Below, piece after piece: positions 10,602 through 58,640 of a stretch of 64,000 nt of DNA. The translations under genes and the position numbers were made by a program. Below the pieces are notes generated by a model. It was not told the origin of the DNA. It made no database searches and saw only the letters and a program-made list of their open reading frames with translations. Within the stretch, counting starts at the first letter, position 1. Each line of letters opens with the position of its first letter. Source of the stretch: Acidocella aminolytica 101 = DSM 11237 (lineage in GTDB: Bacteria; Pseudomonadota; Alphaproteobacteria; Acetobacterales; Acetobacteraceae); assembly GCF_900129125.1 (NCBI RefSeq), contig NZ_FQVJ01000003.1:1-64000 (forward strand), in the 5' to 3' direction.

Positions 10602-10621
10602 AAATGGCGCCCCCGGCAGGA
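10602..10621. repeat. distal attachment site of the tRNA-Arg element
   Basis: This 20-bp copy, AAATGGCGCCCCCGGCAGGA, is identical to 18562-18581, where it forms the 3' end of tRNA-Arg plus three flanking bases. The match ends precisely (next base G here, C there). It contains the last 17 nt of the tRNA including the CCA complement. It marks the end of the element away from the integrase. Confidence 0.9.
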
Positions 10622-10827
10622 GGGGAGCGTTGTATTGCTTTTTGTGTCATAAACATCTGAAATATATTGATTATTTTGCGTCAAACCTGTAACGGCTAGT
10701 TATTTTACCGCCCGTTACACATGGTAGGAATAGGAAGGTATTTGTCTTAGTGAGAACCGCCATGCCATTGATTTGGCGGAATAAAGTTCTTCGGCTATGA
10801 GCAGAGACGCAACGATTTGGAGTCTTC

Positions 10828-11214
10828 ATGCGTTTGTGTCTTCTGTCCGCAGTGACTACTTTGAGCTTATTGTCATGTTCCCCCGCCTTAGCTGATTCCC
10901 AGGACGCTCAACCGGAGTTTGTGTCAGCGATAGGTGCAACTAAGTGCTCAGAGTTTTCGCAGTTTTTGAACGATGGGCCGGATAAGGCGCGTTCGGCATG
11001 GACCATTATCATGCCGTGGACGCAGGGTTACATGGCGGCTTGGAACGATGTTCGCGTGAATATGCTCAACAAAAGCCCACTCGACCTATACCCGGCATCG
11101 TTCCCTGAGAGTGCCCAAAAGGCATATATCGCTAATTTCTGCGAGAAGCATTCTAACTACCAGATTCTGGATGCAGTCATCAATTTGGTTCAAATAATGC
11201 AGAAGACGCAGTGA
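10828..11214 (+). CDS. small secreted protein of unknown function
   Basis: This 128-residue protein has an N-terminal signal sequence MRLCLLSAVTTLSLLSCSPA. Cleavage after SPALA is likely, or lipid attachment at Cys17 if LLSC serves as a lipobox. The mature part has two cysteines (about residues 40 and 105) that could form a disulfide. It has an aromatic WTIIMPWTQGYMAAWND core and a C-terminal helix. The pattern (Cys, GY-x-x-A, then Cys and helix) recalls small periplasmic families such as HdeA-like or Rap1a/Tai-like proteins, but I cannot assign one. It is the first gene inside the element. Confidence 0.65.
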   Translation: MRLCLLSAVTTLSLLSCSPALADSQDAQPEFVSAIGATKCSEFSQFLNDGPDKARSAWTIIMPWTQGYMAAWNDVRVNMLNKSPLDLYPASFPESAQKAYIANFCEKHSNYQILDAVINLVQIMQKTQ

Positions 11215-11458
11215 GAAGAAACCCGGCGCGTAGAACAATAATAAGAACAACCAAATGGCGACTTCTTGAAGTCCTCGAAAACTACCCCCACCCCATACCG
11301 CATGACCGCACGTTTTTCTTGTGTCAACTTTGCGCGATCAATTGGCGCTTAATGCGTTTGACGAATGAAAACAGTGCGTTGTCATGCGCTGTATGACTGG
11401 TTGCTGGTGAACAGCGGACAACGGCGCGATGTCGCCATGGTTAGCCGTAAGTCCACCA

Positions 11459-11527
11459 CTATGCGTTCCCATGCTATGCGTTCCCGGAATCCCACCGATT
11501 CCTAATCGACTCGGGTAAAGCCGAGTC
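11459..11527. repeat. possible resolvase recombination site: tandem repeat and dyads
   Basis: CTATGCGTTCCC occurs twice in tandem (11459-11470 and 11474-11485). It is followed by the dyad GGAATC-N5-GATTCC (11486-11502) and a hairpin GACTCGG-N6-CCGAGTC (11508-11527). All lie within 120 bp upstream of the serine resolvase gene, the usual place for a res site. The rest of 11215-11576 shows no convincing gene. The structure is seen; the res-site role is inferred. Confidence 0.5.
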
Positions 11528-11576
11528 TGCCGTGTCACAAACCAGTCAACGAACGGTGACTCAGTTGTGAGGCGTT

Positions 11577-12260
11577 ATGGCAGACGGGAATTTCATCTCA
11601 TACTTACGGGTTTCGACGGCCAAACAGGGGCAGAGCGGTCTCGGCTTAGAGGCGCAGCGCCGCGCTATCGCTGGGTATCTCAATGGTGGCGCTTGGACGC
11701 TGCTGGAGGAGTTCGTGGAGGTGGAGAGCGGCAAGAACAGCGAGCGGCCCAAGCTGGCGGCGGCGTTTGAGGCTTGCCGTCTGACTGGAGCAAAGCTGTT
11801 GATTGCCAAGCTGGATAGACTCAGCCGGGACGCTGGGTTTCTCCTCGGTCTGGAAAAGGCTGGGGTGGAGTTCGTGGCCGTGGATATGCCCCACGCTAAT
11901 CGGCTGACCATCGGTATTATGGCGGTGGTTGCTGACGAGGAACGGCGGATGATCTCGGCCCGTACTAAATCAGCCCTGGCGGCGGCGAAGGAACGCGGAA
12001 CGGTGCTGGGCGGTTTCCGTGGTGGTGCGAAGGTGGATCACGCCCAGGGAACAAAGGCGCTGGTACGCAAGGCGGATGAGTTCGCAGCCAGGGTAGGGCC
12101 GATAATCGGGACCATGCGCGCCCAGGGTCTCAGCTTCGCCGCCATCGCTGAGCAGCTTAATGCCCGCCAGATACGCACGGCGCGGGGCGGAACATGGGCT
12201 GCAATGAGCGTCAAGCGTGTTCTGGACCGGCAAACTCAAGGCGGCGAGGCGGTGGCGTGA
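11577..12260 (+). CDS. serine recombinase (resolvase/invertase type)
   Basis: This 227-residue protein starts FISYLRVSTAKQ with the nucleophile Ser13 and conserved Arg11. It continues with AKLDRLSRD (Arg81 and Arg84 of the active site) and the E-helix region ADEERRMISARTK. The C-terminal part, about 150-220, carries a helix-turn-helix of resolvase type (LSFAAIAEQLNARQIRTARG). The length matches small resolvases, not large integrases. It is probably used to resolve multimers or cointegrates of the element, beside a tyrosine integrase. The stop overlaps the start of a tiny membrane-peptide gene. Confidence 0.92.
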   Translation: MADGNFISYLRVSTAKQGQSGLGLEAQRRAIAGYLNGGAWTLLEEFVEVESGKNSERPKLAAAFEACRLTGAKLLIAKLDRLSRDAGFLLGLEKAGVEFVAVDMPHANRLTIGIMAVVADEERRMISARTKSALAAAKERGTVLGGFRGGAKVDHAQGTKALVRKADEFAARVGPIIGTMRAQGLSFAAIAEQLNARQIRTARGGTWAAMSVKRVLDRQTQGGEAVA

Positions 12261-12358
12261 TGCGCCGTCTTAAGCTGGCCTTGGGCATTGTGGTGGTGGC
12301 CTTAGTTGCAGTTCTGGCCGTAGTGCTGACCGTAAAGACAACCAAACGCGGGCATTAG
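12260..12358 (+). CDS. 32-residue single-pass membrane peptide
   Basis: An ATG overlaps the resolvase stop (TGATG), giving MRRLKLALGIVVVALVAVLA then VVLTVKTTKRGH. It has a basic N-terminus, one hydrophobic helix of about 18 residues and a basic C-terminus. Translational coupling and the clean amphiphilic layout argue that it is real. Function is unknown: small membrane peptides of this shape include type I toxins, phage holin-like peptides and regulators. The frame has no other start and stops at 12358. Confidence 0.5.
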   Translation: MRRLKLALGIVVVALVAVLAVVLTVKTTKRGH

Positions 12359-12873
12359 GCCGCCGCACGGTGACGGAAAGGAGGCTGAGCGGGCAGAATG
12401 GGTTGTCTCAAAAACAGAGACAGATTCTAATTAAGCCGGATTTGTTGGTTTATGTTTGTCGTGTCTTTGAAAGAAAAACGCGCGTACAACTCTATGACTG
12501 GCGTCACGTTTTCCCCGCGCGGCAAAGCAGAGCGGCGAGGCGTGGCCTAAGTTTTAAAATACTGACCAAGTAAACAGAGCCATTTAGGATGCCGTACAAG
12601 GCCCTTGTGCCATCGCTGCGGCAATCCCGCCGCGAGACATGCAGACCCGCCTGAGCGAGTCTATATGCGGCGTAAAGAGACATAGGCGAAGCCTTTGGTG
12701 GCGCTGCGTGTGACCGATTTGACGCCGACGAGATATCGTTCTGATGCCGTACGTAAAGGCGGTTTTCTTGTGAAAACGAAGGCGGGATAAGGAAGCTTTC
12801 CGTAACTCTAAAAGTACGCTCTCGCCTAGAGAAACGACTTTCTCTTAGCAAAACAAATATTCGAGAGAGTAAA
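12359..12873. other. gene-free stretch inside the element
   Basis: These 515 bp carry only short overlapping frames without recognisable domains or ribosome sites. I see no tRNA, no clear repeat and no strong hairpin. Given its position before the 88-residue gene and the RepA-like ATPase, it could hold a promoter or an origin, but nothing in the sequence shows this directly. Confidence 0.4.
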
Positions 12874-13140
12874 ATGAAATATCAGACGAATTATGCCTCG
12901 GTGTGGAACGGAGAGCGGGAGCTTTTGGCCATTGCCGAGGTTATGCGCAGCGTACTTCCACCGGAGGCGACTAGCAAGTTGTTGCCCTGTGACGCAGAGT
13001 TGTTCGCCGTTCAGTTTACCGCAGCAATACTCCAGCGCCTGCTGAATTGTGATGATGAAGCGGAACGGCGCTGGTGGCGGGTGGTGGCGGAGATGTTCGC
13101 CCGTCACGTGGTGTACGGTCCTAACGGGCCGCAAGGCTGA
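12874..13140 (+). CDS. hypothetical 88-residue protein
   Basis: The start is supported by GAGAGAG just before ATG 12874. The protein is helical in appearance, with WNGERELLAIAEVMRSVLPP and a Trp/Arg-rich RRWWRVVAEMF stretch. No known domain is recognised. It precedes the RepA-like ATPase gene by about 95 bp on the same strand and may be co-transcribed with it. In other islands this position often holds a small regulator or replication accessory protein; that is a guess. Confidence 0.55.
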   Translation: MKYQTNYASVWNGERELLAIAEVMRSVLPPEATSKLLPCDAELFAVQFTAAILQRLLNCDDEAERRWWRVVAEMFARHVVYGPNGPQG

Positions 13141-13235
13141 GCCACGCGGCGTACTGCCACCGATAATAATCCAAGACTGACATGGAGCCCCGGGCGGACA
13201 CGCTGCGGGGCTCTTTCTATTTTCAGAGACATAAT

Positions 13236-14261
13236 ATGACAAAGAAAACCACGCAGGCGGATAACCTGCGTATGACTACGCTCGCCTCCCTTTTGGACCG
13301 CGAGTTTCCTCCCCGTGAAGTGCTGGTATCGCCTTGGCTGCGTTCCGGGGAGAGCGTTCTGCTTTGGGCTCCGACCGGGGTAGGTAAGACCATGCTGGTG
13401 AACACCCTGGCGCTGGCCGTAGCGGGCGGCGGTAAGGTGGCCGGATGGGAAGCCGACAAGCCCCGTAAGGTGCTGCTGGTGGACGGCGAGATGCACATTG
13501 AAGACCTGAAGGATCGCATGGTGCTGCTGGGTGATGCCGTGGAGGGTATCGACATGGAGGCGGCGAGGAGCAATCTCGTCATCCTCTCCCGGCAGGACCA
13601 GGGGCCAGACACTAAGTTTCCTAATTTGGCCGACGAGGCGGGACAGGAGGGTATTATGGGGAGAATCCGGGAGACGGGCGCGGAGCTGGTCATCCTGGAT
13701 AACTTCAGCACGCTCGCTGAGGTGGCTGATGAGAACGAAGCGGCGGCCATGAACCCCATTCTGACATTTCTAATGCGGCTGAAACAGGCGGGGGTGGCGT
13801 GTATCCTGGTGCATCACTCCGGGAAAAGCGGTGAGTCCTATCGGGGTAGCAGCAAGCTGGCCACCACCTTCGAGGTCATCATTGGTCTGAAGCGCCTTGA
13901 GGGGCACGAGGTGGACCATGGAGCGGCCTTTGAGGTGGAATGGACGAAGTACCGAGGGAAGCCAAACGCTGCCACGAGAAACGCTGAGATGCGGCTAGAT
14001 AGCGGGGAGGGCGCAGAGCAGCGCGTTAAGTGGAGCGTTAAGGCCGCCGCGAGCACCGTAATGATGAACGTGGTGGAAGCAGTGCAGTCAGGGCGCTATC
14101 GAACACAAAAGGCTCTGGGTGAGGCTCTGAAGTTGAGCCCTGTCGAGGTCACGCGCCTTAAAGACAAAGCCATAAAAGGCGGACTGATTTCGAGGGCTGC
14201 GTGGAATGAGTGCATGAAGGTTGCCGCAGAGGAGGCTGAAGATGACAGTGCTGACTTCTAA
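13236..14261 (+). CDS. RepA-like AAA/RecA-fold ATPase
   Basis: This 341-residue protein has a Walker A motif APTGVGKT at residues 45-52. KVLLVDGEMHIEDLKDR follows, then Walker B LVILD at 151-155, and a sensor-like CILVHHSGKSGESYRGSS near 190-206. This order (GxxxxGKT, E-after-sheet, HHxxK, RGSS) is that of hexameric RepA/DnaB-type plasmid helicases (AAA_25). The C-terminus has a helix-turn-helix-like region (TQKALGEALKLSPVEVTRLK). ATG 13236 is chosen over the upstream start at 13182. It probably supports replication of the excised element. Confidence 0.85.
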   Translation: MTKKTTQADNLRMTTLASLLDREFPPREVLVSPWLRSGESVLLWAPTGVGKTMLVNTLALAVAGGGKVAGWEADKPRKVLLVDGEMHIEDLKDRMVLLGDAVEGIDMEAARSNLVILSRQDQGPDTKFPNLADEAGQEGIMGRIRETGAELVILDNFSTLAEVADENEAAAMNPILTFLMRLKQAGVACILVHHSGKSGESYRGSSKLATTFEVIIGLKRLEGHEVDHGAAFEVEWTKYRGKPNAATRNAEMRLDSGEGAEQRVKWSVKAAASTVMMNVVEAVQSGRYRTQKALGEALKLSPVEVTRLKDKAIKGGLISRAAWNECMKVAAEEAEDDSADF

Positions 14262-14284
14262 GCAGGATTAGCATCACGATACGG

Positions 14285-14312
14285 GCTTGGGCATCCAATA
14301 GGGTGTCCAAGC
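14285..14312 (+). terminator. hairpin after the RepA-like gene
   Basis: GCTTGGGCATCC and GGGTGTCCAAGC form a 12-bp stem with two mismatches around a 4-nt loop, 24 bp after the ATPase stop. There is no long T-run, so it could be a weak terminator or an mRNA-end structure. The remaining part of 14262-14559 shows no gene. Confidence 0.4.
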
Positions 14313-14559
14313 AGTGTAACAGTTTCAGATTTCATCTCTATATAGGGCTGAAATTCGAAATAATGGCGGTTTGCCTGGGTTTTTCGGGCGTTCAGCGCCG
14401 GAGGGGTGAAATTTTAAGATCAAGACGCCCTATGTCTTAGGCGGACCCGTCCTGGACATAACAGGTCAGTTTCTGCTTCCCGTTAGCTGACGCAGTAAAA
14501 ATTGCGCTGACACAATCCAGATTGTTCTGAAAGGCTCGCTATTCCAGGATGCTCCAGCT

Positions 14560-15543
14560 ATGATATCCAGTTTCAACGGGCGCAGAGGCGTGCTCTACTT
14601 CAGCCCATTTAAGCCGACCGAACCTTACGCCATAGCAGGCGGCATTGTTGTGGTCCCGTCGGGAGGGCTCATGCTTCCAATGCATGGTGGCGCGTCCCAT
14701 TGGATGTCACGCTCGCATTTCGTTGCACAGTCGGATTGTCCAGATGATGTTGTAATGAAACAGTTTAGGGACTGGTTGATATTTGATTGCTTTGTAATGA
14801 TGAACAGTCACGGGGCGGCACACTATGATGATAATCGTCATGTCTTTGAAGTCATCGACAACCCAGACGATGACTGCAATGTGCGCAATGCCGTAGACTA
14901 TTCCGATGTGGTTGCGTTTCTTGTAGGTTCACATGCCGGGAAACCTGAGGGATTGCCTGCGAGATCGTACGCAGACCTGTATCAGGCATTCCTGGATCTA
15001 TCTCCAAGGATGCGGTCTGCGATCGAATGGTTTGTTTCGCAGCCACCAAGCCCACGTCGTCTTGATCCCCTCTATGGTCGATATTGGGGCTTGCAGCATA
15101 TGATAATTCTCATCGAGGAGCTTATTGGCGTTCCACCAGACTGCGAAGCTGAGCCTGCTATATGCAAAAGCTGTGGAAGGAAGCCTCCGCGCCACCATAA
15201 GGTGTCGCGGATGGATTGGCTGCGCGAGGAATTGGAACGTCGTATGGAAGCCAAGCCACTTGTCGACGAATATGTTCTACTCATCGAGAAGGGAATAAGC
15301 ATCCGGAACAAAATGTCACACCGCCCACACTTTGATCGCTCTGTCCGTCCGGTGATGAAACCTAGGGAACGAACTTCCTATGATGCATCAAGAGCCATCC
15401 GGGAGTTCAAGAGTGATACTTACGCCCTTGAAGCTATGCTTGTTGCTCTCCAACGTGTAGCACACGACCTACTTGTTGGCGAAGCATTTAAAATTAAACA
15501 TTTTAGACAACCACCTATTCTTAACGTAGCAGTCATTGGTTAG
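14560..15543 (+). CDS. unknown protein with HEPN-like R-x4-H motif
   Basis: This 327-residue protein has an N-terminal region rich in beta-type segments (about 1-110), then a helical C-terminal half. It has one CKSCG cysteine pair near 203. In the last third, EKGISIRNKMSHRPHFDR contains R-N-K-M-S-H, the R-x4-H signature of HEPN ribonuclease and Apea-like HEPN domains. It is preceded by a long helix (WLREELERRMEAKPLVDEY) as expected for that fold. HEPN proteins are common RNases in toxin-antitoxin and phage-defence systems. Codon use is less GC-rich than in core genes. Domain call by motif only. Confidence 0.55.
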   Translation: MISSFNGRRGVLYFSPFKPTEPYAIAGGIVVVPSGGLMLPMHGGASHWMSRSHFVAQSDCPDDVVMKQFRDWLIFDCFVMMNSHGAAHYDDNRHVFEVIDNPDDDCNVRNAVDYSDVVAFLVGSHAGKPEGLPARSYADLYQAFLDLSPRMRSAIEWFVSQPPSPRRLDPLYGRYWGLQHMIILIEELIGVPPDCEAEPAICKSCGRKPPRHHKVSRMDWLREELERRMEAKPLVDEYVLLIEKGISIRNKMSHRPHFDRSVRPVMKPRERTSYDASRAIREFKSDTYALEAMLVALQRVAHDLLVGEAFKIKHFRQPPILNVAVIG

Positions 15544-15597
15544 TTTGTATATTTCGATGCCGATTTTAGAATTCTTAGACCTAAAAGTCAGGCAGGG

Positions 15598-16542
15598 TCA
15601 TGATTTACTAAACAATCTCGACAACCAACTTTTCCTTGCGACTGGCGCGGAAGGCTTCTTTGTTGCTCGTGGTGGTGTCGAAGCACCCACCTGCGTGGTG
15701 GTGCTTTTTTCAAGAGAGGCTTTCCCCTTGGCAGTCAGCATTTCCTCAGGCAGGTCAGAAATGGAGTAAAGCCAATGAAGATGACACATACAACCTGTCT
15801 CTTGGTGCGGCCGGTCGATCTCGTCGATGTATCCATCCGAGCCAACGACCATTAGACTTTTAGCCTCAGCCCAGTTTCGGCGAACAGCATAGACACGCCC
15901 ATCTCGTTGCTTGTGATCCATGTCTGGAGGAAATTCGCATTCCTCATCCAGCGATGAGTATTCCCACACGGCGGCAAGAGGCTCTCCGCTCATAATAAAA
16001 ATATATTCAACCTCACTCGGGAAACTCATTGCCTTATGCGTGTAAAACAGCTGGTTCCACTTTGAGAAATATCTAATTTCTCTTTTTATCCTGGCAATAT
16101 AGGGCGCGCGTTCTTTAGCAGTGCGGGGAACTTCCGCAAGAAACTGATCAATCAGTTGGTTAATGTCGGAAACGTATTTTTCAAAACATATTTTTGCCTG
16201 CGTTCTATAATTTTCAATGCACGATGCGTGGCATTTCTTAATCAAGGGGAGTAGTTTTTGGAAATTATCCGCAACCGATCTTCCGCTAGAACTTACAATC
16301 TCACCAGTGCTCCCTCCGATAATTGTTCTTGTTGGCATGCCCTTCACGGCAATAGTTTTTGCCAGAAAATCGTCGCAGTTAATCCTATATGAGGCGACGG
16401 CCTGGTCAAGCGAAGGGACATTCGAAAAAATAAGTGCCATCACCTGTGACTTGACGACCTCTGTGGAGGCGTTCTTACCTTCGGCATAGCTGTTGAGTAG
16501 CCCAGCTACATTTTCGGCAACCTGCTTAGATTCAAGGATCAT
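15598..16542 (-). CDS. hypothetical 314-residue protein, convergent with the HEPN-motif gene
   Basis: The protein is mostly helical up to about residue 170. A central EVEYIFIMSGEPL segment follows, then HKQRDGRVYAVRRNWAEAK and a PHQETGCMCHLHW cluster. The last 45 residues are a Pro/Ser/Lys-rich tail ending KSWLSRLFSKS. The D-x-H-x-x-R-D-G-x-x-Y plus P-H-x4-C-x-C layout resembles the C-terminal motif of phage head-morphogenesis (Mu gpF-like) proteins, but the length and context do not match a capsid gene. Its codon use is AT-richer than the core. I do not assign a function. Confidence 0.6.
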   Translation of the reverse strand: MILESKQVAENVAGLLNSYAEGKNASTEVVKSQVMALIFSNVPSLDQAVASYRINCDDFLAKTIAVKGMPTRTIIGGSTGEIVSSSGRSVADNFQKLLPLIKKCHASCIENYRTQAKICFEKYVSDINQLIDQFLAEVPRTAKERAPYIARIKREIRYFSKWNQLFYTHKAMSFPSEVEYIFIMSGEPLAAVWEYSSLDEECEFPPDMDHKQRDGRVYAVRRNWAEAKSLMVVGSDGYIDEIDRPHQETGCMCHLHWLYSISDLPEEMLTAKGKASLEKSTTTQVGASTPPRATKKPSAPVARKSWLSRLFSKS

Positions 16543-16741
16543 CTAAAACGCCAACAGTGAAACTTCTAGGATTTTAGACTGAAACTTGGCCAGTCGGCTA
16601 GCGCTGACTATGAGCGGGTGCGGTCTGTCTGATTTTACGGCATTTAACTTTGAGGCAAGCAGTCTGCTTTCTCTCTATTTTGGCGATCATTTTCAACGCC
16701 TTCTTTGTGCCCGGGCAAAGCATACCATCGGCTTTCTATCG

Positions 16742-16882
16742 TTAGTTCTCTCCGCTACCCACACAATCCGGCACCGGAATGCTGTTGATGGCATCTGACA
16801 GCCGACGCAGGTCTTCACCGCGTATCCCGTATTGCCGTCCTGTGGTCTTCCTGGCGTGGCCGGTGATAGCATCGCGGATTGC
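16742..16882 (-). pseudogene. C-terminal remnant of a second tyrosine integrase
   Basis: Directly after the stop of the integrase gene, the same frame runs on for about 46 codons. It reads AIRDAITGHARKTTGRQYGI, then RGEDLRRLSDAINSIPVPD, and stops at 16742. GHARKTTGRQYG holds the His and nucleophile Tyr spacing typical of tyrosine-recombinase C-termini, and the following helix is typical of the family tail. The intact integrase has its own equivalent segment (MGHERGALAYDVYS), so this is leftover from another integrase. The rest of 16543-16741 shows no gene. Confidence 0.6.
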
Positions 16883-18448
16883 TCATCCACTCCTACGCCG
16901 TCGCTGTGATGGCTCAAAGCGGGCCATCGGCGGCCTACTGTTTGCCGTCTCCGCCAGGGCGGTTAATACCTCCTCATCCAGACCCAGCCGCACCACGTCA
17001 TCCAGCGCTGTCCTGAGCGGTGCCAGACGGGTTGCCACGGTGGCGCGTAGGGCAGGGGCGGTCATCTTGCCCCAGTCCGAATAAACATCATAGGCCAGCG
17101 CGCCGCGTTCATGCCCCATGAGCAGTTTGGTCATCTCGGTGTCTATTTGGCCACCCTTCATGCGCGCCGTATCCGCTGCGGTGGCGAATGTTCTACGGAA
17201 TGAATAGAGTTCTACTGCGTCTATATCACCCAGTATGCGGCGGCGGAGCGGTATGAACCGGGAGGATATGGTCTTAGCGCGATCCTTATCGGCTCCTTGA
17301 GCTGGGACTTCTGGCCATAGCGGCGCGCTTGAGGCAGTGTCAGGCAGCGCGGCAAGGCGTTGCGTCACCACCTGGGCAGCGAACGGGTGCAATGGGATAA
17401 TGCGCTGCCCGGCTGGCGTCTTATCGCTGCGTATGACCAAGGCCATAGCGCCGTCATCGGCCTTGAATACGTCCCCGCACGTCAGACTCATTATTGAGAG
17501 CGGACGCGCCCCGGTGAGTAAAAGGATACGGATCAGATCGAACATAGCAGGCCCATAGCCGCCCTGCCGTGGGGCTAGTTGGGTGGCATCGGCCCTGATG
17601 AGTGCAACTAGTTCGGCGGAGGTGAAGGCGCGCTTGGTATCCTCAACATGGCCGGGCTTGGCGCGCTTTATGTCGGCCCGCATGTCAGACCAGGGATTAG
17701 CCTCGGTGTGGCCTTTGCGGATGGCCCAGCGCCATAAACCGGATACGGCGGGGAATTCTCGACTTATCGCGGCGGCGGACACGCTTTCTTGGCGCTTATC
17801 AAGGAAGCCTGACGCAATCTGCCGGGTGACTTGGGATAATGCCGCCACCTCAGACCCACCCAGGGCAGTTTCGTCTTTCAGGTAGGCGTCAAATAGCCGG
17901 AATACGGCCTCGTAACCCTGGGCAGTTTTGGCCTTGATCTCTGTCTTATCCTTCAACCACCGCCGCGCAGCGTCAGCTATGGTCATTCCGTCACCCAGGG
18001 CGGCATTCAGATAGCGCAATCGCGCCGCTTCGCCTTGCCTTGCCGCCACCTCATCGGCCTCTCGTTCGATAAACTCTCGGGTTATGTCCGACTCGAATAT
18101 GGGTATGGGCTCCTCATAGTCTCGGGTCTCATAGTCAATGATGCGGTGCCGCCCGGCCTGCATCTCGGCGCGGCGCTGTAAGGCTTTTGCCATGGGATCG
18201 GCGGTCCAGTCGGTCAGCGGGCGTAGGCCAGCTTTGCGGAGCGCTGCGTCTATCTCAGAGCGCATGGCGGCAAGCATGGTGTCCCGGCGTTGCGTGGCCT
18301 CGCGGTGGTCTCTAGTGCCGAGTGAGCGGACCAGTTCACGACAAACCCCGGAACGGGTGCCTAACGCGCGCCCTACGTCGTGCCATCGTGCCTCTGGGAT
18401 ATGTAGTCGGGCTGACCAAGTGAGGCCGCGTCGGATCAGATTCGCCAT
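16883..18448 (-). CDS. tyrosine integrase of the tRNA-Arg element
   Basis: This protein of about 521 residues has an N-terminal MANLIRRGLTWSARLHIP region like that of DUF6538 integrases. A SAM-like core-binding domain follows at about 150-260, then a C-terminal catalytic domain. Active-site residues seen are Arg in LLLTGARPLSIMSL, Arg in YSFRRTFAT, His in LMGHERGA and Tyr in YDVYSDW. The usual His of the HxxR box is Tyr here (Y-S-F-R). It lies 117 bp from tRNA-Arg, points away from it and marks the proximal end of the element. ATG 18448 is preferred over the TTG at 18454. Confidence 0.9.
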   Translation of the reverse strand: MANLIRRGLTWSARLHIPEARWHDVGRALGTRSGVCRELVRSLGTRDHREATQRRDTMLAAMRSEIDAALRKAGLRPLTDWTADPMAKALQRRAEMQAGRHRIIDYETRDYEEPIPIFESDITREFIEREADEVAARQGEAARLRYLNAALGDGMTIADAARRWLKDKTEIKAKTAQGYEAVFRLFDAYLKDETALGGSEVAALSQVTRQIASGFLDKRQESVSAAAISREFPAVSGLWRWAIRKGHTEANPWSDMRADIKRAKPGHVEDTKRAFTSAELVALIRADATQLAPRQGGYGPAMFDLIRILLLTGARPLSIMSLTCGDVFKADDGAMALVIRSDKTPAGQRIIPLHPFAAQVVTQRLAALPDTASSAPLWPEVPAQGADKDRAKTISSRFIPLRRRILGDIDAVELYSFRRTFATAADTARMKGGQIDTEMTKLLMGHERGALAYDVYSDWGKMTAPALRATVATRLAPLRTALDDVVRLGLDEEVLTALAETANSRPPMARFEPSQRRRRSG

Positions 18449-18561
18449 GGCCAAACCATATCATAAGCAAGACAAAACTGTAACGGCAGACCTGTAACGG
18501 CCAGGAACATGCGGTGTTAGGGAGGTTCTTGTAAGACGTTGATTTATAAGGCTAACTTTTA

Positions 18562-18581
18562 AAATGGCGCCCCCGGCAGGA
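18562..18581. repeat. proximal attachment site, overlapping tRNA-Arg 3' end
   Basis: This is the 20-bp sequence repeated exactly at 10602-10621. Here it covers the 3' acceptor strand and part of the T-arm of tRNA-Arg(UCU), so integration keeps the tRNA intact. Confidence 0.9.
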
Positions 18582-18641
18582 CTCGAACCTGCATAAACGA
18601 ACTTAGAAGGATCGGAGCTTATCCAGTTAGCCAACGGGGGC
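18565..18641 (-). tRNA. tRNA-Arg(UCU)
   Basis: The 77-nt leftward gene folds with the acceptor stem GCCCCCG/CGGGGGC. The D-arm is GGCT...AGCT, the anticodon loop CTTCTAA has anticodon TCT, and the T-arm is GCAGG-TTCGAGT-CCTGC. An encoded CCA end follows the discriminator G. The anticodon stem has one T-T mismatch (positions 30-40). It reads AGA codons. Its 3' end is the integration target of the adjacent element. Confidence 0.93.
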
Positions 18642-58514: not shown

Positions 58515-58576
58515 TGCAGGCAGACGGGGATGGAGTCCCCCAAAACCGCTCCTTCGGGGAGCTGATGACTCCTGCA
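58515..58576 (+). promoter_or_regulatory. fluoride riboswitch (crcB motif)
   Basis: The sequence carries the conserved fluoride-aptamer blocks in order: GGGGATGGAGTCCCCC, AAAACCGC, and GCTGATGACTCCTG. An outer stem pairs TGCAGG (58515-58520) with CCTGCA (58571-58576). It stands about 65 bp before crcB, with no other gene in the gap, so fluoride would turn on crcB and downstream genes. The match to the consensus is close, including the pseudoknot-forming core. Confidence 0.93.
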
Positions 58577-58640
58577 GGCGTTATGCACTGCGGGAGTCGC
58601 GCGTCTTGGCCCCCGTGGTATTGAGAAGGAGATAGGTTGC

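Follow-up and report, generated by a model that had tools for sequence, protein, structure and literature searches.

A compact tRNA-Arg-integrated element with candidate anti-phage cargo in Acidocella aminolytica and its apparent relatives in the Acetobacteraceae

The genome of Acidocella aminolytica 101 = DSM 11237 (assembly GCF_900129125.1) harbors an insert at a tRNA-Arg(TCT) gene near the start of contig NZ_FQVJ01000003.1. The window, i.e. the whole stretch of DNA analysed here, comprises positions 1 to 64,000 of this contig. The insert (Table 1) is bounded by two exact copies of the 20-bp sequence AAATGGCGCCCCCGGCAGGA, which give a core-to-core distance of 7,960 bp, and no third copy occurs in the window with up to three mismatches allowed. 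The repeat consists of the final 17 nt of the tRNA gene, including the encoded CCA, and of 3 nt beyond it; the Rfam match to the tRNA covers 18568-18641. A chance origin was ruled out, as 0.06 matches were expected and two matches were obtained in none of 100 shuffles. An earlier note, made from the letters alone, had equated the distal repeat with the 3' end of the tRNA gene and had placed the integrase gene next to the latter, and both observations hold. The locus thus shows what defines a tRNA-integrated element, namely a direct repeat of a tRNA 3' end that bounds an insert.

Table 1. Features of the tRNA-Arg-integrated element, in window positions (GC, fraction of G and C; ORF, open reading frame).
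Feature	Position	Strand	Remarks
Distal attachment site, 20 bp	10602..10621	.	element-side CCCC before core; minus-strand reading CCCC-TCCTGCC-GGGG
Distal arm-type repeat CTGTAACGGC (= GCCGTTACAG)	10687..10696	.	73 bp from core
Variant arm copy CCCGTTACAC, other orientation	starts 10711
128-aa ORF, function unknown	10828..11214	+	probable signal peptide (by eye); GC 0.494
Small serine recombinase, 227 aa	11577..12260	+	Resolvase N domain PF00239 3e-26; partial Recombinase domain PF07508 4e-6
88-aa ORF, function unknown	12874..13140	+	between recombinase and ATPase
RepA-like AAA_25 ATPase, 340 aa	13239..14261	+	PF13481 4e-30; alternative upstream start 13182
327-aa protein, putative RNase	14560..15543	+	HEPN-type motif RNKMSH; cargo; GC 0.499
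314-aa relative of phage minor-head / head-morphogenesis proteins	15598..16542	-	cargo; GC 0.468
Tyrosine integrase, 523 aa	16883..18454	-	phrog_1 2e-29; relatives at tRNA genes
Two arm-type repeats CTGTAACGGC, 14 bp apart	18478..18501	.	82 and 96 bp from core
tRNA-side attachment site, 20 bp	18562..18581	.
tRNA-Arg(TCT), intact target gene	18565..18641	-	ARAGORN

The organization of the element ends resembles that of an integrase attachment site (attP). Read in the direction of the tRNA, the shared sequence starts at the T of TCCTGCC GGGG, and in three related elements (L061, L107 and L106) the identity of both copies starts at the corresponding T. The CCCC preceding the distal core is present in the window, L061 and L107, but not in L106. 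Beyond the core, the heptamer CGTTACA recurs at arm-type positions. On the integrase side, it lies at +82/+96 in the window, at +80/+94 in L061 and at +81/+95 in both L057 and L058, i.e. in four of six elements. On the distal side, it is found at -73 (-61 in L061, -75 in L107), and the window has an additional copy in the other orientation at -98. The expectation is approximately 0.011-0.016 copies per 150 bp, as computed for three elements. Four of the six copies in the 64-kb window nonetheless fall within the element ends, and eight of the ten copies in the 72,248 bp of L057, L058, L061 and L107 stand at these arm places. By sequence pattern, an integrase gene accompanies an attP that has both core and arm-type sites. 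The common layout and the enrichment of the arm motif strongly indicate that the repeat arose by site-specific integration, and the two 20-bp copies look like a true attachment-site pair on which the integrase presumably acts.

Pfam and PHROG matches bear out the tyrosine integrase, serine recombinase and RepA-like ATPase that the earlier note had listed. The serine recombinase shares 50-61% identity with the recombinases of L061, L107, L099, L145 and L146, and 73 plasmid records carry a relative at 1e-40; one of these records measures 6.3 kb. The ATPase matches RSF1010 RepA weakly (PDB 1g8y, E 0.005), as well as phage primase/helicase PHROGs. Counterparts of the RepB primase and the RepC initiator of RSF1010 were not recognised in the window element. 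In the proposed mechanism, the integrase would act on the pair of 20-bp sites at the T-arm/acceptor end of tRNA-Arg, a reaction in which the tRNA would remain intact. Once excised, the circle could replicate using the RepA-like helicase, while the serine recombinase could resolve multimers of the circle. Such a core of helicase, multimer-resolving recombinase and integrase would correspond to a plasmid-like replication kit joined to a tRNA integration kit.

This gene set is not confined to the window. Integrase relatives occur in 7 of 299 genomes of the family Acetobacteraceae, self included (1e-30). Four of the six relatives are found next to tRNA-Arg(CCT) and another next to tRNA-Ser, while the sixth (L036 = L059 = L106) is preceded by the 3' half of a tRNA-Arg; in one of the six (L037/L060) the integrase frame is split. 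A scan of genome contigs likewise gave six integrase loci, five of them in Acetobacteraceae metagenome-assembled genomes and one in Sabulicella rubraurantiaca. Relatives of the ATPase are present in 29 of 298 family genomes, self included (1e-12). In total, eight elements could be delimited. The seven besides that of the window span 4.1-7.9 kb and sit at sequences of tRNA-Arg, tRNA-Glu, tRNA-Thr or tRNA-Gln: L061 (7,908 bp), L107 (6,999 bp), L106 (4,079 bp, partial tRNA), L141 (5,011 bp, tRNA-Glu), L142 (6,511 bp, tRNA-Thr), L143 (6,456 bp, tRNA-Glu) and L145 (6,501 bp, tRNA-Gln). L106 and L141 are bounded by 14-bp repeats only.

The family gene set consists of the integrase and, variably, the small serine recombinase and the RepA-like AAA_25 ATPase. 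Among the nine best non-self ATPase loci of the 298 genomes (L139-L147), eight have an integrase, eight a serine recombinase and seven both. These counts are partly given by construction, because the profiles were seeded from the same loci (six for the integrase profile, two for that of the recombinase); reading the integrase and recombinase ORFs of six of the loci by eye gave results in agreement with them. The recombinase is broken in L147, whereas L140-L142 and L144 match it weakly, at 1e-7 to 1e-13. Outside the family, four ATPase loci (L253-L256) were opened out of nine non-self matches; the stretches read lack the trio, with a weak integrase match at one locus. The earlier note had proposed a search of related genomes for the same gene set at tRNA-Arg; relatives do sit at tRNA genes with att repeats of their own, and their gene set varies.

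Variation is apparent between ATPase and integrase. Only 386 bp separate the two genes in L141, a 145-aa ORF lies between them in L143, and in L058 a C-terminal ATPase fragment directly adjoins the integrase, whereas this interval holds two genes in the window, and we interpret it as a slot for cargo. At other loci, the cargo includes a Panacea antitoxin domain in L107 and an annotated SIR2 protein in the undelimited Azospirillum locus L099. The open-access literature searched yielded no name for such elements, in line with the earlier note's description of a little-described type. Taken together, the elements apparently form a small, unnamed family of integrative elements in the Acetobacteraceae. 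As separate observations, the Sabulicella element encodes, next to its serine recombinase, a 446-aa protein (L061, 12514-13854) that matches the uncharacterised phage family phrog_4756, and two short contigs of the window's own genome (C98 and C99; L002 and L003) share 3,349 identical bp and encode a distant integrase relative (29%). The latter identity may reflect either duplication in the assembly or a small element that is repeated.

Several known classes of mobile elements were compared. Repeats of a tRNA 3' end and an integrase beside the tRNA are shared with tRNA-integrated islands and integrative mobilisable elements (IMEs). A difference from these is that no relaxase was found here; the window-element ORFs scanned gave no relaxase, coupling protein, type IV secretion system (T4SS) or packaging gene, which agrees with the earlier note on conjugation genes and speaks against an assignment as IME or integrative conjugative element (ICE) by relaxase or T4SS. 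Many mobilisable islands consist of an integrase and a replication gene with no structural set, as does this element, and mobilisation in trans by conjugation through an oriT only would be compatible with such a content. Given that neither relaxase nor coupling protein was found among these ORFs, we consider this route distinctly unlikely. Tycheposons are tRNA-integrated and combine a tyrosine recombinase with variable cargo; by this description the window element is alike in all three traits, but differs in gene set and host. A passage of PMC11389934 mentions them.

The comparison with phage satellites is more involved. PICI, P4-like and PLE elements are each marked by characteristic regulators and primases and by genes that hijack a helper. 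Among the element ORFs (14 compared by Pfam, 8 by PHROGs), neither these hallmarks nor any gene for AlpA, a primase, a terminase or capsid size was found, so that these classes were rejected. PMC10803314 defines PICMI by AlpA, a primase and a Fis site besides the integrase. The window element is similarly small, with few genes that include an integrase and one replication gene, and some PICMI also carry defence cargo. Unlike PICMI, it is integrated at a tRNA rather than a fis site and has a serine recombinase and a RepA-like ATPase instead of AlpA and primase, which were not found among the ORFs scanned, and an assignment to PICMI was rejected.

The two genes in the slot have a GC content of 0.47-0.50, as opposed to 0.59-0.63 in integrase, recombinase and ATPase, and both are predicted to be anti-phage genes: a candidate HEPN-type RNase and a minor-head relative. 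The latter, a 314-aa protein, corrects the earlier note, according to which capsid genes were lacking. It shares 66% identity over its full length with a protein on the Acetobacter ascendens plasmid NZ_CP015166 and 42% with a protein of genome G074 (L148, 1813-5424), near which an integrase fragment and a caspase-domain gene (PF00656) also occur. Within residues 135-280, partial matches to 17 phage records (duplicates included) were obtained, with 29-35% identity to gp03 of Pantoea PdC23 and gp45 of Shewanella vB_Sb_QDWS; for one IMG/VR ORF, identity reaches 50% over 72 residues. A CxC motif and LPEEMLTAKG are common to the protein and seven viral ORFs. In the four phage records opened, the gene comes after the terminase genes and one more gene (named portal in two), and one record annotates it as head morphogenesis. 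BLAST against a small database gave E 1.2e-25 to the IMG/VR locus L077 and 4.6e-18 to L084, which themselves match phrog_324 at 1.8e-27 and 1.3e-25; the G074 relative matches phrog_324 weakly (E 0.008). A structural model (pLDDT 74.5) retrieved phage minor-capsid/head-morphogenesis proteins over most of its length by Foldseek in BFVD (E 3e-5), a fold match that may be favoured by the viral homologs in the model's alignment. In the PDB, the fold search returned no hit with an E of 0.001 or lower, and 7rdr, the sole match of the PDB sequence search (query A2), was judged spurious, being a repeat protein with short weak stretches. Hence, homology to phrog_324-like minor-head proteins of phages was found, although the protein differs from these in being a lone island gene whose N-terminal part is without sequence likeness to them.

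A clue to its role comes from a lambda-like Klebsiella plasmid record (L097, 3835-4269), in which a 144-aa protein with the same head-protein C-terminal domain adjoins a helix-turn-helix regulator. The spot beside such a regulator is the usual place of immunity genes in lambda-like records. Interference with phage heads is therefore favoured for the 314-aa protein, which may poison the head assembly of an invading phage. A precedent by mode of defence is the tail-assembly blocker Tab, described in PMC10884400 as defending by blocking virion assembly; it acts on tail assembly, and no homology with the 314-aa protein is claimed. Two side observations concern such head proteins: the 144-aa protein probably contains a membrane segment, as judged by eye, and the viral head protein of L094 (652-2460) and L095 (3177-4985) is split near its conserved CRC residues by approximately 315 residues that appear intein-like by eye.

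The head-protein relative might also point to a phage satellite that is excised upon helper infection, replicates with its own helicase and is packaged into helper heads; the minor-head relative would then redirect or sabotage the capsids of the helper. Size and layout with an integrase and a replication gene are satellite-like, the sole recognised structural gene resembles a phage head gene, and defence genes occur in some satellites, as stated in PMC10803314. Against this stand the satellite genes listed above as not found and the fact that no minor-head relative was found in the other seven delimited elements. Moreover, the phage collection gave no match to either integrase or ATPase; in IMG/VR, ATPase identities are 39% or less and the close-relative search gave no integrase match. 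A search with phrog_324 found no head gene in the window's genome, which is a weak test because this profile also misses the 314-aa gene. Overall, a satellite appears unlikely. The same holds for the more far-reaching idea of a new satellite or hitcher family of the Acetobacteraceae that combines tRNA and plasmid-like kits and, in the present case, a captured minor-head decoy to block or redirect capsids, which we regard as improbable.

For the second slot gene, the designation as a HEPN-motif protein in the earlier note is plausible and has the motif as its support. The 327-aa protein occurs in 2 of 299 genomes, self included, and RNKMSH is conserved as RDKMSH in the sole homolog (G289, 66%), which is surrounded by transposase genes, an integrase and an AAA_21 gene. 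The looser pattern R-x4-6-H occurs at three places in the protein. No family match was found in Pfam, NCBIfam, PHROG or PADLOC and no match in plasmids, phages or IMG/VR, and the single-sequence model is poor (pLDDT 41.6). The assignment as a HEPN RNase is thus tentative.

Based on these findings, we favour, with a probability of roughly 55%, an integrative mobile element of a small Acetobacteraceae family that carries putative anti-phage cargo and whose excised circle could replicate. A prophage was rejected, since terminase, portal and major capsid genes were not found among the ORFs scanned beside the one minor-head relative, and a known defence system as well, with PADLOC matches being weak and partial only.

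A number of observations weigh against the favoured reading. The ATPase has no match in L061, L107 and L106, although integrase and serine recombinase are present there; arm sites on the integrase side are missing from L107 and L106, and L106 has no arm site at all. The integrase carries Y where its four aligned relatives have the H of the HxxR box. The low GC content of the slot genes is shared by the 128-aa ORF (0.494) outside the slot. Neither the 314-aa protein nor its 66% homolog matches phrog_324 directly, and the PADLOC scan gave no strong match for the cargo function. The last points relate to the site itself. In the flank covered, no tRNA lies near rsmB in the rsmB loci of 29 relatives, some of them on contigs cut short, and the genes upstream of rsmB differ among these loci. 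In G003, a nadK-like gene follows the tRNA, and gpt- and pnp-like genes precede rsmB (names by eye); the nadK-like gene is on another contig of the window's genome. The missing tRNA-rsmB adjacency and the displaced nadK-like gene indicate that one of the lineages has undergone a rearrangement.

An immobile remnant that is retained for its cargo would be consistent with this rearranged context relative to G003, with the Y for H exchange and with a degenerate att site in G030. Yet, the frames of integrase, recombinase and ATPase are uninterrupted, the 20-bp repeats are identical and both arm sets are present, which makes a remnant distinctly unlikely. The favoured mobile element probably was once mobile or still is.

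The empty junction of tRNA-Arg and rsmB that the earlier note had called for was found in none of the relatives. The outcome of this check is nevertheless mixed, since the att core is located within 200 bp upstream of rsmB in 2 of the 29 loci (G001, 71 bp; G030, 69 bp); the contig of G001 stops within an element-like end. In G025, the Flp locus and the tRNA are followed by 14 bases to the contig end, the final 11 of which equal the end of the window element. These sequences suggest occupation of the site in sister species. Joined-flank models of L061 and L141 gave no match across the junction in congeners, the best L061 congener (L151) ending approximately 295 bp past its tRNA. L166, L167, L168, L170 and L173 have no element gene beside the tRNA in the flank covered, and their downstream flank is not homologous.

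For many small tRNA islands, no means of movement is known. A family with a sharp attP, compact recurring genes and a member in Sabulicella rubraurantiaca SYSU D01096 (L061/L108) makes excision, replication and helper use testable. If a lone head protein indeed serves as island cargo, defence by blocking virion assembly would extend to the head.

Core genes flank the element on both sides, as the earlier note had stated: to its left lie rsmB, a GNAT gene and the GMP synthase gene guaA, to its right the Flp pilus genes, which encode two Flp pilins, a prepilin peptidase, RcpC/CpaB and a secretin. Of the minor ORFs, the 128-aa ORF has no Pfam, NCBIfam or PADLOC match and one weak PHROG match (E 0.037). 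A 32-codon ORF at 12260-12355 overlaps the stop of the serine recombinase and encodes a single membrane helix by eye. Elsewhere in the window, a fluoride riboswitch lies at 58517-58581 (Rfam RF01734, 55 bits).

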